This document shows positions 3,829 through 8,682 of a stretch of DNA of 8,682 nt, in pieces. The notes under the pieces are model-generated. The model saw only the letters and a program-made list of their open reading frames with translations. It had not been told where the DNA came from and ran no database searches. Position 1 is the first letter of the stretch, and every line of letters begins with the position of its first letter. The stretch lies in NCBI GenBank assembly GCA_003647765.1, contig QMNM01000044.1, forward strand, positions 1-8,682. Direction: 5' to 3'. Origin of the DNA: Candidatus Cloacimonadota bacterium. Lineage in GTDB: Bacteria; Cloacimonadota; Cloacimonadia; JGIOTU-2; B8-G9. The position numbers and the translations under genes are program-made.

Positions 3829-4320
3829 ATGGAATCCGATACTATTATAAAAGAATTCAAAAATAGAAAAGCAGAACGAGATTATTTTATTGAATCTCGG
3901 TATGAGGCAGGAATTGTGCTAAAAGGCACAGAAATAAAATCAATTCGTAGCGGGAAATTAAATTTTAAGGATGCTTATGCAATTATAAAAAATGGCGAGG
4001 TGTGGCTATTAAACCTACACATTGCGGCTTATGAAAAAGATGGATACTCTATATCAAAAGGTGGAGCATTCGGAATTCACGAGCCAGAAAGAAAAAGAAA
4101 ACTACTTTTACATAAAAGGGAAATAAATCGCTTAGAAAAAAAAGTGCAAGAAAAAGGATATAGTTTGATTCCATTGCGTATATATATTATAAAGCGAGGA
4201 TTTGCCAAAATAGAAATTGCTCTGGCACGAGGTAAAAAAATGTATGATAAAAGAGAAAAACTACGAGAAAAAGAAGACGCAAGACAAATAGAGATAAATT
4301 GGAAGAGGCGTAGGGCGTAA
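3829..4320 (+). CDS. smpB: SsrA-binding protein SmpB (trans-translation)
   Basis: A 163-residue cytoplasmic RNA-binding protein that delivers tmRNA to ribosomes stalled on messages without a stop codon. Family motifs appear in order: [19 protein letters not shown] (11-29), [12 protein letters not shown] (31-42), NFKDAYA (45-51), [11 protein letters not shown] (55-65), KLLLHKREI (91-99) and the conserved [13 protein letters not shown] (131-143), which precedes the basic tail that folds in the ribosomal A site. The loop after HIAAYE is a few residues longer than usual. The start is well supported by AAAGGA at 3818-3823. The final residues (RRA) and the TAA stop are encoded by the first units of a heptamer array, so the natural C-terminus was probably changed. 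tmRNA is not found in this window. Confidence 0.97.
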
Positions 4321-4391
4321 TGCGTAGGGCGTAATGCGTAATGCGTAGGGCGTAGGGCGTAATGCGTAATGCGTAGGGCGTAAAGCGAAAG
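4308..4391 (+). repeat. GCGTANN heptamer tandem array (11 units plus one degenerate)
   Basis: From 4308 the units read gcgtagg, gcgtaat, gcgtagg, gcgtaat, gcgtaat, gcgtagg, gcgtagg, gcgtaat, gcgtaat, gcgtagg, gcgtaaa, then a decayed gcgaaag. The first four bases and the fifth A are invariant through eleven units, while the last two vary between GG and AT (AA in the last). The array starts inside the last codons of smpB, contains its stop, and ends 12 bases before the next gene, where gcgaaagg supplies the likely ribosome site. It is far richer in GC than its surroundings. Units have no spacers, so it is not a CRISPR. Confidence 0.95.
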
Positions 4392-4403
4392 GATGATTAT
4401 AAA

Positions 4404-5234
4404 ATGAAATGGATATGGAAGCCATCCACTCACTTGAAAATAAATCAATTAGCATTGCAAAAGATGTCTAAAAAATTCCAAAAGTTTATTAATATTTATC
4501 AGCATCTATTCCAACTTGGTGTTATTGCACCAGATAAAATATTCGCTGACACGAGCAATCATTATTATAATATTACTCCTAATTCAAATGGCTATCACAG
4601 TGGAACTGTTGTAAAAAAGATTGAAAAAGAAATAATGTTAATTTATCAAATGATGAATAGTTATGATACAGTTATTCATCATCCTCGTTGTGCAGATTAC
4701 CTTAAATCCATTATGGACACTCCATTGAAAGCAGTTATATTTGAATTAGGCGTGATTTCTCATTATGTTGCTGACTTGCATCAGCCATTTCACACTGATG
4801 GTAAATATCATTTTCCGTATGAAGAAGTGCCACATAAAATCTTTGAAGCAGATGTACGAAAAAATTTTGCCATTCTTTCCATCTCTTTATCCAAACGCAG
4901 ATATAGAATAAAAAATATTACGCAGTTCTTCTATAACCAAATTGATAAAATTCACCCTTTTTATGATAAGTTAGTTGATAATTACTTTCTAAATCCACAA
5001 AAGGTCAAACCAGACCGTTTTACAAAATCCATTTCTATTACTGAATTTTGTATTGGAATAGCTGCGGATAATGTGGCAAATGTCTGGTTTTTATTTGAAG
5101 ATAAACTGGATAATTATAAAAGTCAGATACAGTATCTATTACTACACCAAAAAATTAACAGCCATCTGAGTCCAGAAAATAAATATTCATTAAAAGTATA
5201 TCCAAGTGGAACAGTTAGCATTAGAAAAAATTAA
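4404..5234 (+). CDS. Zinc-dependent phospholipase C / S1-P1 nuclease-like protein
   Basis: A 276-residue, mostly helical protein of the trinuclear-zinc phospholipase C/P1 nuclease superfamily, which hydrolyses phosphodiester bonds. Residues 120-130 read HYVADLHQPFH, giving H120-x3-D124-x5-H130, followed by H144-x3-E148. The spacing equals H118, D122, H128, H142 and E146 of Bacillus cereus phospholipase C exactly. Further likely ligands are His10 (KPSTH), Asp44 (IAPD) and His53 or His65. The N-terminus (MKWIWKPSTH) has no signal peptide, unlike secreted members whose mature terminus begins with a zinc-binding Trp, so this one is probably cytoplasmic. GAAAGGA at 4387-4393 lies 10 bases before the ATG, slightly far. 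Lipid or nucleic-acid substrate cannot be decided. Family confidence is high; activity is inferred. Confidence 0.85.
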   Translation: MKWIWKPSTHLKINQLALQKMSKKFQKFINIYQHLFQLGVIAPDKIFADTSNHYYNITPNSNGYHSGTVVKKIEKEIMLIYQMMNSYDTVIHHPRCADYLKSIMDTPLKAVIFELGVISHYVADLHQPFHTDGKYHFPYEEVPHKIFEADVRKNFAILSISLSKRRYRIKNITQFFYNQIDKIHPFYDKLVDNYFLNPQKVKPDRFTKSISITEFCIGIAADNVANVWFLFEDKLDNYKSQIQYLLLHQKINSHLSPENKYSLKVYPSGTVSIRKN

Positions 5235-5303: not shown

Positions 5304-5846
5304 TTGGACAGAGAGTTGAAATTAGATGGTAAGGTATGGTTAATTGTGAATAAAGAGCATCAGCTTATTGATGATATTGATACAGATATGATTTTTCATA
5401 ATCGGTATTTAGCAATTACTGATATTGCTCAAATGGGCCAATATACATTTGATAATCTTGAAGAATGGAAAGATTTTGCACAAAGAACAGAAAAAGGGGA
5501 CATAATTATTGTAGGAGCAAATTTTGGTTCTGGTTCATCTCGTCAGCAAGCAGTTGACTGTTTTGTCTCTCTCGGAATTCAAGCGATAATTGCTAAGTCC
5601 TTTGGTGCTATATATAAAAGAAATGCGATAAACTCCGGATTTCCTATCCTAACTTACAATTATATAAATCTAAATAAAATAGCAAATCGTGAAGAAATAA
5701 CTATTGATTTAGAAAAAGGAACTGTAAATAAAATAGAAAGTGATGAAGAATTTATAAATGTTAATCCATTTTCACAAGTGCAAATGGATATCTATAAAAG
5801 TGGAAATTTATTTAATTATGGAAAAACATTAGGCAATCTTAAATGA
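5304..5846 (+). CDS. Aconitase-type swivel subunit (LeuD-like small subunit of a hydro-lyase)
   Basis: A 180-residue small subunit of the two-subunit isopropylmalate isomerase/homoaconitase family. It supplies substrate-binding residues to an iron-sulfur large subunit that isomerises a hydroxy-acid. Visible motifs are DDIDTDMI (23-30), RYLAI (34-38, the substrate-specificity loop), GANFGSGSSRQQA (71-83) and KSFGAIYKRNAINSGFPIL (98-116). SSR keeps the substrate-binding arginine. The usual GCGSSRE is here GSGSSRQ. The loop YLAI lacks the arginine of the YLRT type that I associate with homoaconitases, so a hydrophobic-substrate (isopropylmalate- or dimethylmalate-like) role is more likely, but this is inference. 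The start is TTG behind AGGGGG. No large subunit or other leucine gene is nearby. Its TGA overlaps the ATG of the next gene (ATGA, 5843-5846), implying translational coupling. Confidence 0.85.
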   Translation: MDRELKLDGKVWLIVNKEHQLIDDIDTDMIFHNRYLAITDIAQMGQYTFDNLEEWKDFAQRTEKGDIIIVGANFGSGSSRQQAVDCFVSLGIQAIIAKSFGAIYKRNAINSGFPILTYNYINLNKIANREEITIDLEKGTVNKIESDEEFINVNPFSQVQMDIYKSGNLFNYGKTLGNLK

Positions 5847-8608
5847 ATAATAGAAAGATATACTATTTATATATTTTCATTCTCCTTGTTTCATTTATTA
5901 TGATTAGTTGTGGAAAACTAGCAAAGAATGATGTATCAGTGCAGAATGTAGAAGTAGTAGATGTGCCTAATGATGATGGTGGTGGAGTAGTCATAAATTG
6001 GAAGCCCCTTCCTCGTGAAAATAAAATTATAGAATATCGTATTTATCGTGGAATTCATCCTGATACTCTTTATTATATTGGCAAAATACCAATCAATATT
6101 AAAAGTGGCGTAATAGCTGATACTTTGAAATTCTATGATAAGGGCTACACTTTTTTTGTAGATGCTAATTCTCCATCTAAAAGAAAATTAGAAAAGGGCT
6201 TACCAAAAGGCGAAACACGACTATATCGCTCTTATCCAAAAGATTTATCTGTTATCGGACCACTTTTTAAGTATTATAAAATGTTATGCATAATACCTGA
6301 TAAACAATACTATTACAAAACCAAAAAGAAATTATTTGTTGATATTATTGATACAGAGCATGGGAAAAAGGATACAGTTGAAGAATATCTTTCTGGATTG
6401 AAAATAGAACAATTTTCTGAGATTGCGGCAAAACTAAAACCAGATCAGGATTATTATTATGCTGTGCAAGCAGTGAACAATTCTCGTAAAAAATCCCCTC
6501 TTTCAAAAGTGGTAAAAATAAGAACTACTGATGATCCACCAGAACGATTAAATGATTTTTATGCAGTGAATATAATAGACAAGCAAAGAATGCATTTTGA
6601 ATGGTCAATACCATTTTTTACTTCTGACCTAGAATCGTATAATATTTATTTGATAGATAAAGACAGTGAAAAACATCTTATTTTTCATAGGATAACCGCA
6701 TTCCCTTATACCTCTCAAACTAATTGTATAGTAAATTATGAGGATATAAAAAAGTTATATCCAGATTTTGATGAAAATAATATTGATAATTACTGTTTTG
6801 ATATTGGAGTAAAAGATAATGCAGGGCAGGAAACATTCTATTCTGATGGCAATGGCATTTTTGCAAAAAATATTACTTCTAAACAATTACCTACACCAGT
6901 GGAGTTCTTTACTATAAAAGACAATCCAAACGATAGTGGTGAACATATCCTGATTTATTTTGGCAAACCTTATGCAGAAGTTACAAGAGCAGAATATTCA
7001 CATAATTTTAAACGACTTATACTCAATTATTATTATAAGGATAATGATATATTTAAAATAAAAGCAATTATATTCACAATTAAGGACAAAAAATATACTG
7101 AATATGTTTTAGATAAAAAAATTGTAGTTAAAGTTAATTGGGAACCGACAGAACCAATTGATATAAATATATCATTCAAAGTAAAAACAAAAAAAGGTGG
7201 TCCGTCATTACCTGATGATTATAAACTGACTTATACTATTGATTATGATAAAGAGATGGAAAGAGCATATATAGTTGATAAAGGCATTAAGTACAACTAT
7301 CAAGTATATAAGCTCAGCAAAGCAGAAGAAGTGTATCGTTTTCCAAAATTGATTCCTTATAATTGGCGCGAATATAAGGACAAAGTTAATTATGAGACAG
7401 ATATTTATCGTGGAGTGGCGAAATATGATAATAATTACATTTACACCTCTGCTTATTTGTGTATGGATTTTGATAGGGATAATAATGAAATTATATTTAC
7501 AGATTTATATTTAGACCAATTAAAGAAGAATAAAGACATATCAGCAAAAAAGATTAAGAAGTTAAATGAAAAATTATTAAAGCCCAATTTGCCAGATACA
7601 TTAAAATATAAAATAGAGCAAAATATCGCTGATTATAAAAAAGTAATTTCAGAAGATAATTTGCCTAACTATTTGAAAGAGGCAAATAGGCAATCAAGTG
7701 ATAAGAAGCGGATAAAATTTCTTGCTGAAATGCGAGAGAAAAACATCCGTACTTGCACCTATTTTTTGAGAACAACTGATGGTAAAGGACATTTTGCAGA
7801 TACTGAACATTCTGAATACATATTCCCTAAACCTGAATGGTTTGATAAAAATCAGATATTAGTATTGATATTTGTATTGATATTTACACTATTTGTCTAT
7901 TATTTCATTAAGTCAGCACAAAGAGGAAAGGAATTTTATATTCGTCCAATTGCTGGAATTCAAGAGATTGATAATGCAATTGGTAGAGCAACAGAAATGG
8001 GAAGACCCATTTTGTATGTTAATGGACTTGGTTATATAGAGGATGTAGCAACTCTTGCTGGATTAGCAATTTTAAGTAGAGTTGCAAAGAAGTCCGCTGA
8101 ATATGATACCAAGCTTTTAGTACCAGCATTTGATTATATAGTATTGCCTATTTCACAAGAAATTGTTAAAGAAGCACATTACGAAGCTGGACGACCTGAT
8201 ACTTATGATAAGGATAATGTATTCTTTGTTACTGATAGTCAGTTTGCTTATGTGGCTGGCGTTAACGGAATTATGATTCGTGAAAAAACAGCCACGAATT
8301 TTTATATGGGGATGTTCTATGCTGAATCCTTACTATTGACAGAAACAGGAAATATGACAGGAGCAATCCAAATTGCTGGAACTGATGCAGTTGCACAATT
8401 GCCATTTTTCATCACTACTTGTGATTATACTTTGATTGGTGAAGAATTATATGCAGCAGGTGCTTATCTATCCAGACAACCATTGATTATGGGAACATTA
8501 AAAGCACAAGATTATGCAAAATTGCTAATTGTAGCATGTGTTATTATTGGAACATTCTTGTCAACTGCACATTTAACATTTTTTATCAACTTGTTTCCAG
8601 AAAAATAG
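5843..8608 (+). CDS. Large lipoprotein with FN3-like domains and C-terminal DUF6754-like membrane domain
   Basis: A 921-residue protein. Residues 1-23 form a lipoprotein signal (hydrophobic 7-21, lipobox-like MISC with Cys23). Two fibronectin-III-like segments follow: about 34-228, with YRIYRG near 65-70, YYYAVQAVNNS at 204-214 and a TTDDPPE linker at 228-234; and about 235-335. Next comes a long beta-rich, tyrosine/lysine-rich region to about 540, and a charged, probably coiled segment (about 555-640). A membrane helix at 671-689 precedes the most conserved part, 700-910: RPIAGIQEIDNAIGRATEMGRP, LLVPAFDYIVLPI, EAGRPDTYD, MFYAESLLLTETG, GTDAVAQLPFF and CDYTLIGEELYAAGAYLSR. A second helix (893-914) closes the protein. 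I recognise the C-terminal block as the DUF6754 type, known in several little-studied phyla and with no assigned function. Predicted topology is a large periplasmic half with DUF6754 on the cytoplasmic side. It overlaps the swivel-subunit gene by four bases. No catalytic motif is evident. Confidence 0.75.
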   Translation: MNNRKIYYLYIFILLVSFIMISCGKLAKNDVSVQNVEVVDVPNDDGGGVVINWKPLPRENKIIEYRIYRGIHPDTLYYIGKIPINIKSGVIADTLKFYDKGYTFFVDANSPSKRKLEKGLPKGETRLYRSYPKDLSVIGPLFKYYKMLCIIPDKQYYYKTKKKLFVDIIDTEHGKKDTVEEYLSGLKIEQFSEIAAKLKPDQDYYYAVQAVNNSRKKSPLSKVVKIRTTDDPPERLNDFYAVNIIDKQRMHFEWSIPFFTSDLESYNIYLIDKDSEKHLIFHRITAFPYTSQTNCIVNYEDIKKLYPDFDENNIDNYCFDIGVKDNAGQETFYSDGNGIFAKNITSKQLPTPVEFFTIKDNPNDSGEHILIYFGKPYAEVTRAEYSHNFKRLILNYYYKDNDIFKIKAIIFTIKDKKYTEYVLDKKIVVKVNWEPTEPIDINISFKVKTKKGGPSLPDDYKLTYTIDYDKEMERAYIVDKGIKYNYQVYKLSKAEEVYRFPKLIPYNWREYKDKVNYETDIYRGVAKYDNNYIYTSAYLCMDFDRDNNEIIFTDLYLDQLKKNKDISAKKIKKLNEKLLKPNLPDTLKYKIEQNIADYKKVISEDNLPNYLKEANRQSSDKKRIKFLAEMREKNIRTCTYFLRTTDGKGHFADTEHSEYIFPKPEWFDKNQILVLIFVLIFTLFVYYFIKSAQRGKEFYIRPIAGIQEIDNAIGRATEMGRPILYVNGLGYIEDVATLAGLAILSRVAKKSAEYDTKLLVPAFDYIVLPISQEIVKEAHYEAGRPDTYDKDNVFFVTDSQFAYVAGVNGIMIREKTATNFYMGMFYAESLLLTETGNMTGAIQIAGTDAVAQLPFFITTCDYTLIGEELYAAGAYLSRQPLIMGTLKAQDYAKLLIVACVIIGTFLSTAHLTFFINLFPEK

Positions 8609-8682
8609 CGTGGTGCGTAGTGCGTAAGGCGTAAGGCGTAAGGCGTAAGGCGTAGTGCGTAATGCGTAGTGCGTAGTGCGTA
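8608..8682 (+). repeat. GCGTANN heptamer tandem array, running off the window
   Basis: Units from 8608: gcgtggt, gcgtagt, four copies of gcgtaag, gcgtagt, gcgtaat, two copies of gcgtagt and a partial gcgta at the edge. The first G is also the last base of the preceding TAG stop. It belongs to the same family as the array at 4308-4391 but with a different mix of final dinucleotides (AG, GT, AT), so the two arrays expanded independently rather than being copied whole. Confidence 0.95.

Follow-up and report, generated by a model that had tools for sequence, protein, structure and literature searches.

The window that we analysed is a whole contig of 8,682 bp (G000:C70) from a MAG of 1.97 Mb in 360 contigs, ~89% complete, which is placed in the Cloacimonadota by named relatives. 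It carries a long plus-strand open reading frame, whose parts are listed in Table 1. This frame is real, as judged from relatives in other Cloacimonadota genomes that align over residues 3–921 and from a match to Pfam family PF20539 (DUF6754) at E 3e-119, in which the C-terminal 255 residues cover the profile end to end (positions 2–256 of 257), far over the cut-off (397 bits versus 27). Hydropathy analysis gives three hydrophobic helices, one at aa 6–24 and two that bracket the DUF6754 block, as the sequence-only reading of this DNA had proposed. The PF20539 entry covers the domain alone and assigns it no function; the N-terminal arm and the partner proteins described below lie outside it. 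Elsewhere in the window, a zinc-dependent phospholipase C family protein (PF00882, E 7e-12) is encoded at 4404–5234 (+) between smpB and leuD, with a match to S1/P1 nuclease just under the cut-off. Tandem repeats of a 7-bp GCGTAAG-type unit lie between genes at 4306–4392 and 8614–8682, with the contig end inside the second; the first of them gives rise to a spurious minus-strand ORF at 4077–4448 that encodes repeated THYALRP.

Table 1. Parts of the DUF6754 gene in the window, with coordinates, strand and basis of assignment.
Feature	Position	Strand	Basis or remark
DUF6754 subunit gene, long form	5843..8608	+	921 aa plus stop; ORF call, PF20539 E 3.4e-119
N-terminal hydrophobic signal, aa 1–23, with lipobox-like MIS-C23	5843..5911	+	sequence, hydropathy, lipobox counts
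Putative extracytoplasmic arm, aa 24–670, FN3-like modules, differing between clades	5912..7852	+	
Best single FN3-like match in arm, aa 197–224	6431-6514	+	
PF20539 DUF6754 domain including both membrane helices, aa 663–917	7829..8593	+	
Membrane helix 1, aa 671–689, followed by K/R-rich stretch (positive-inside)	7853..7909	+	
Probable cytoplasmic alpha/beta domain, aa 690–893, holding nearly all invariant residues	7910..8521	+	alignment A1; model pLDDT 62
Membrane helix 2, aa 894–912	8522..8578	+	

The DUF6754 domain is strongly conserved. Alignment A1, which holds 27 sequences from several phyla, contains more than 50 invariant columns, including patches of Glu, Gln, Lys and Arg, and many residues of the conserved polar patches picked out by the sequence-only reading are invariant throughout. 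A signal peptide before the domain and a K/R-rich stretch after the first C-terminal helix suggest that the domain lies in the cytoplasm and the arm outside. Identity between the window protein and its relatives is 55–77% in the domain and only 16–44% in the arm. The structural model of the domain is weak (pLDDT 62) but shows helices and strands alternating between the two membrane helices, and its matches are generic alpha/beta folds: the USP-like protein 5ahw at E 0.067 in Foldseek, and VIA Z scores of 7.8 for Rv1636, 7.3 for 5ahw and 8.4 for TrpB.

The N-terminal part of the protein is much less uniform. The window protein does carry a lipobox, as first read, but its nearest orthologues (L038, L069, L075 and L081) have N-terminal signals without one, and a lipobox occurs in only 17 of 103 family members of at least 340 aa; because it is so sporadic, ‘lipoprotein’ is not a family trait. 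In the window protein, FN3 (PF00041) scores 20.7–23.2 bits against a cut-off of 25, whereas the family profile of the arm matches a titin chain (E 1.4e-9) and an fn3 match occurs in 12 of 19 long relatives. We therefore call the arm FN3-like only. The middle part, first read as beta-rich and uncharacterised, is more aptly seen as a series of FN3-like repeats that differ from clade to clade; it is not unique to one genome, being common to long homologues across Cloacimonadota. In other DUF6754 members the arm is replaced (a PQQ propeller matches in 2 of 19) or missing, some proteins being only 292–304 aa long.

Listing the neighbours of DUF6754 genes across phyla placed this protein in a larger setting. 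ORFs were called around 50-odd DUF6754 genes and clustered, with loci from Zixibacteria, Armatimonadota and a fourth phylum added later. Directly downstream, in fixed order and on the same strand, three families recur: C2 (~210 aa, a polytopic membrane protein), C1 (~300 aa, helix–domain–helix) and C3 (~200 aa, also polytopic). At least C2–C1–C3 follow in order on one strand after 75 of 108 distinct DUF6754 genes, or 76 with one tandem DUF6754 pair, and the remaining genes are mostly at contig edges, are misses by the simple ORF caller or are second DUF6754 genes placed after C3. The order is the same in Cloacimonadota, Zixibacteria, Armatimonadota and the fourth phylum, the median spacers within the unit are 12, 0 and 2.5 bp, as many as three complete units follow one another directly (L049, L101), and in L104 C1 and C3 are fused in one 571-aa ORF. 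A fixed fifth component was looked for upstream and not found: the genes there differ by clade, and include LeuD, PanC, SDR and MutL together with a 375-aa protein. The conserved unit contains no fixed regulator, enzyme or ATPase, no P-loop ATPase occurs among its four families, and no conserved kinase, cyclase or DNA-binding gene neighbours it.

The presence of these families across genomes follows the same pattern. PF20539 occurs in 121 of 124 Cloacimonadota, in all 80 sampled Zixibacteria (often in 4–6 copies), with copy numbers of up to six in these two phyla, in 16 of 17 genomes of the fourth phylum and, above cut-off, in 18 of 148 Armatimonadota; it was found in 0 of 14 well-known control genomes. 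When C2 and C1 were searched independently in the 148 Armatimonadota, each was found in the same 17 genomes, all within the 18 with DUF6754, and in the eighteenth (G129) the DUF6754 gene is cut by a contig end. The Fisher P value for this co-occurrence, 2e-21, is uncorrected for phylogeny and is overstated because the genomes are related. Linkage is not the only cause of the pattern, since in G214, G218 and G228 C2 and C1 are present on a different contig from DUF6754.

The genome of the window itself holds all four components. It has two DUF6754 genes, that of the window and one on contig C307 (a 972-aa frame), and a single C2–C1–C3 set was found, on another contig, C63, ahead of secA (E 3e-96, 3e-115 and 5e-86 for C2, C1 and C3, respectively). 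In the tree, the two DUF6754 copies pair with each other (support 0.987) inside a clade (support 0.996) in which every other member heads an intact unit with the same order, and a LeuD gene lies upstream of the window gene, as in most of those relatives. From this placement and the shared upstream LeuD, the window gene is the orthologue of an operonic gene. The contig ends within a tandem repeat 74 bp past the DUF6754 stop. As a separate observation (L134, 5590–8784 of G000:C63), secA lies just downstream of the C2–C1–C3 set and was not seen there in the other genomes inspected.

None of the four components matches a family of known activity above threshold. C1, C2 and C3 match no Pfam family at all at this level; searches of PDB sequences with P0001, A1, A2, A3 and A4 returned nothing significant; and no characterised family was matched in sequence by the DUF6754 block in Pfam, NCBIfam or the PDB, in keeping with the earlier statement that no activity is assigned to it. 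For C2 and C3, no transporter family gave a significant match. For C2, there are sub-threshold matches only (ABC2_membrane_5 and TMD0_ABC); the matches to TMD0_ABC, 7TMR-DISM, MgtC and Acyl_transf_3 are below threshold in every member inspected and vary between members, an inconsistency expected from membrane composition. Inspection of the alignments shows no invariant sets of Cys and His such as mark redox or metal sites, and the helices of C2 and C3 have no prominent conserved charged residue at mid-helix of the kind found in ion-driven motors. Hydropathy helix counts scatter, from 4 to 6 for C2 and from 2 to 5 for C3. Two apparent links within the unit were rejected. Homology between DUF6754 and C1, suggested by a resemblance in architecture and in a stretch ahead of the last helix, is unsupported by profile–profile comparison, and a match between the C1 and C3 profiles is an artefact of the fused C1–C3 ORF in the alignment. 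A role in anti-phage defence is likewise unsupported, as neither PADLOC nor NCBIfam gave a match above cut-off.

The structural model of C1 is confident (pLDDT 91.5), with a helix, a Rossmann-like alternation of strands and helices and a long final helix, and its alignment contains invariant Glu, Lys and His residues. K/R residues occur at both ends (about 8 in the flanks), so that the positive-inside rule would place the domain between the helices outside the cytoplasm. The unit would then present a Rossmann-like domain on either side of the membrane, DUF6754 inside and C1 outside. The strand/helix order of C1 is shared with the Rossmann domains of TrkA/RCK K+ channels (VIA Z 8.0 for TrkA and 7.5 for RCK), but these scores are level with those of unrelated Rossmann folds and the likeness is one of fold class only, because SDR enzymes and CODH epsilon score the same; moreover, C1 is bracketed by two membrane helices and is probably extracytoplasmic. 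A helix–alpha/beta domain–helix protein beside a six-helix protein is presumably also the arrangement in GldG/ABC_transp_aux with its ABC-2 permeases, from which the present unit differs in that C1 has no Pfam match and the conserved unit has no ATPase.

We conclude that DUF6754, C2, C1 and C3 very probably form one complex, given a gene order kept in four phyla, near-zero spacers, co-occurrence even when unlinked and one C1–C3 fusion. An undescribed, self-contained inner-membrane complex of four proteins is the most likely explanation and is well supported. The sequence-only reading had pictured a transmembrane device linking outside binding to an inside domain; an outer arm and an inner domain agree with the topology, but the protein does not stand alone, being one subunit of a conserved four-gene membrane unit.

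How might such a complex work? In our model, the window gene encodes subunit A, in which a variable FN3-like arm (in some members a PQQ propeller) would extend outside the membrane and be joined by a helix to the conserved Rossmann-like domain in the cytoplasm and then to a second helix. C2 and C3, with about six helices each, would form the membrane core, and C1 would place a second Rossmann-like domain on its outer face. Docking of the arm to envelope or surface partners or ligands could be relayed via the helix to the inner domain, which would gate or drive passage of a solute or polymer through the C2–C3 core, and paralogous sets with different arms could serve different partners. As a whole, with this proposed working, we give the explanation a probability of about one in two. 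Several findings count against it: C2 and C3 gave no significant transporter match, their helix counts scatter and their helices show no prominent charged residue, the DUF6754 model is weak, no energy source is evident in the unit, and the only C2–C1–C3 set found in the genome of the window lies on another contig than DUF6754. That the job of the complex is translocation we infer more tentatively, at somewhat less than even odds. Transport or a channel fits somewhat better than a sensor or an enzyme because the unit is self-contained, has two polytopic subunits and an invariant core, carries an exchangeable arm and occurs as several paralogues in a genome.

An envelope sensor or signal relay is an unlikely alternative but the strongest of those considered. 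Here, the FN3 arm would sense a periplasmic or surface ligand, the inner Rossmann-like domain would bind a nucleotide or second messenger or signal to an effector, and C1–C3 would be accessory. The joining of a variable outer part to an almost invariant inner part, the several paralogues per genome and the likeness of the low-confidence inner model to USP-like folds, several of which bind nucleotides, would all suit a sensor. Nevertheless, chance alone would give fold matches of this level, a sensor would not need two polytopic subunits, some members have no arm at all, and no regulator, kinase, cyclase or DNA-binding gene is conserved nearby. With a unit that lacks a fixed regulator, enzyme or ATPase and upstream genes that vary by clade, transport is favoured over signalling.

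Quite unlikely, in our judgement, is a membrane-bound enzyme complex in which C1 and DUF6754 would be enzymes of the Rossmann fold with a lipid or a cell-wall precursor as substrate, held by C2 and C3. The invariant polar patches of DUF6754 and the invariant Glu, Lys and His of C1 would suit this reading, and Rossmann-fold proteins are among the structural matches of the C1 model (Z 8.9 for CODH epsilon, at 3.1 A over 146 residues; Z 7–8 for SDR reductases). However, Z scores near 8 are common among unrelated alpha/beta proteins, neither the DUF6754 nor the C1 model has a Foldseek match at E<0.001, and no invariant GxGxxG occurs in the alignment of DUF6754 (A1) or C1 (A2), so there is no indication of a classical NAD(P) enzyme. 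Because the scores against TrpB, USP and CODH epsilon are at the level of common alpha/beta folds, none of these matches was used to assign function. Finally, a part of, or substitute for, a type IX secretion/gliding motor, with the arm resembling the periplasmic shaft of GldM, is very improbable: the architecture of an inner-membrane protein with a long Ig/FN3-like arm and a putative C-terminal sorting-like domain protein two genes upstream of C2 on C63 would fit, but Pfam and NCBIfam scans show no similarity to GldL or GldM. SprA_N (PF14349) matched 0 of 148 Armatimonadota, among them all 18 with DUF6754, but the controls gave no match to this profile either.

More broadly, DUF6754 is an already named domain. 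None of the subunits ties the unit to a system whose function is known, with the reservation that a structure may yet place it in a known class. In the literature searched, which lacks most subscription papers and all preprints, no paper was found to name DUF6754 or PF20539 or to describe the unit, its partners or its distribution; these phyla are not named in the main text of a catalogue that covers novel families of uncultivated taxa (PMC10849945). For a wider proposal, the odds are just short of even: the unit would be an inner-membrane machine of a new class, with Rossmann-like domains on both faces and an outer arm that can be exchanged, probably important to the envelope of Cloacimonadota and Zixibacteria because it is near-universal and amplified to several copies there. 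A module found in nearly every genome of whole phyla, in multiple copies and with stronger conservation than most envelope proteins, should have a central role. There are several further implications. First, a lone domain of unknown function becomes a testable complex once it is defined as a unit. Second, three unrecognised families gain names and boundaries, three of the four proteins lying outside any Pfam family. Third, the unit gives a way into the envelope biology of phyla that are largely uncultured, and its presence in some Armatimonadota may open a genetic route.

The composition of the unit and its surroundings also varies in smaller ways. A conserved protein of ~375 aa starting MGHVYTPGLKVTEF lies upstream of DUF6754 in L042, L044, L045, L127–L129, L100 and L102; it matches no Pfam family over cut-off and adjoins a MutL (PF13941) protein in L042, L044 and L045. 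Extra C1 genes occur after C3 or elsewhere in the genome (L050 and L113; G217, G221 and G237), which suggests that C1 can vary in number. In L096, next to panC, a tandem pair of DUF6754 genes without arms (283 and 291 aa) precedes one C2–C1–C3 set. Many Cloacimonadota carry a second long DUF6754 gene straight after C3 (L036, L071, L072, L076, L079 and L084), and one unit may thus have two different A subunits.
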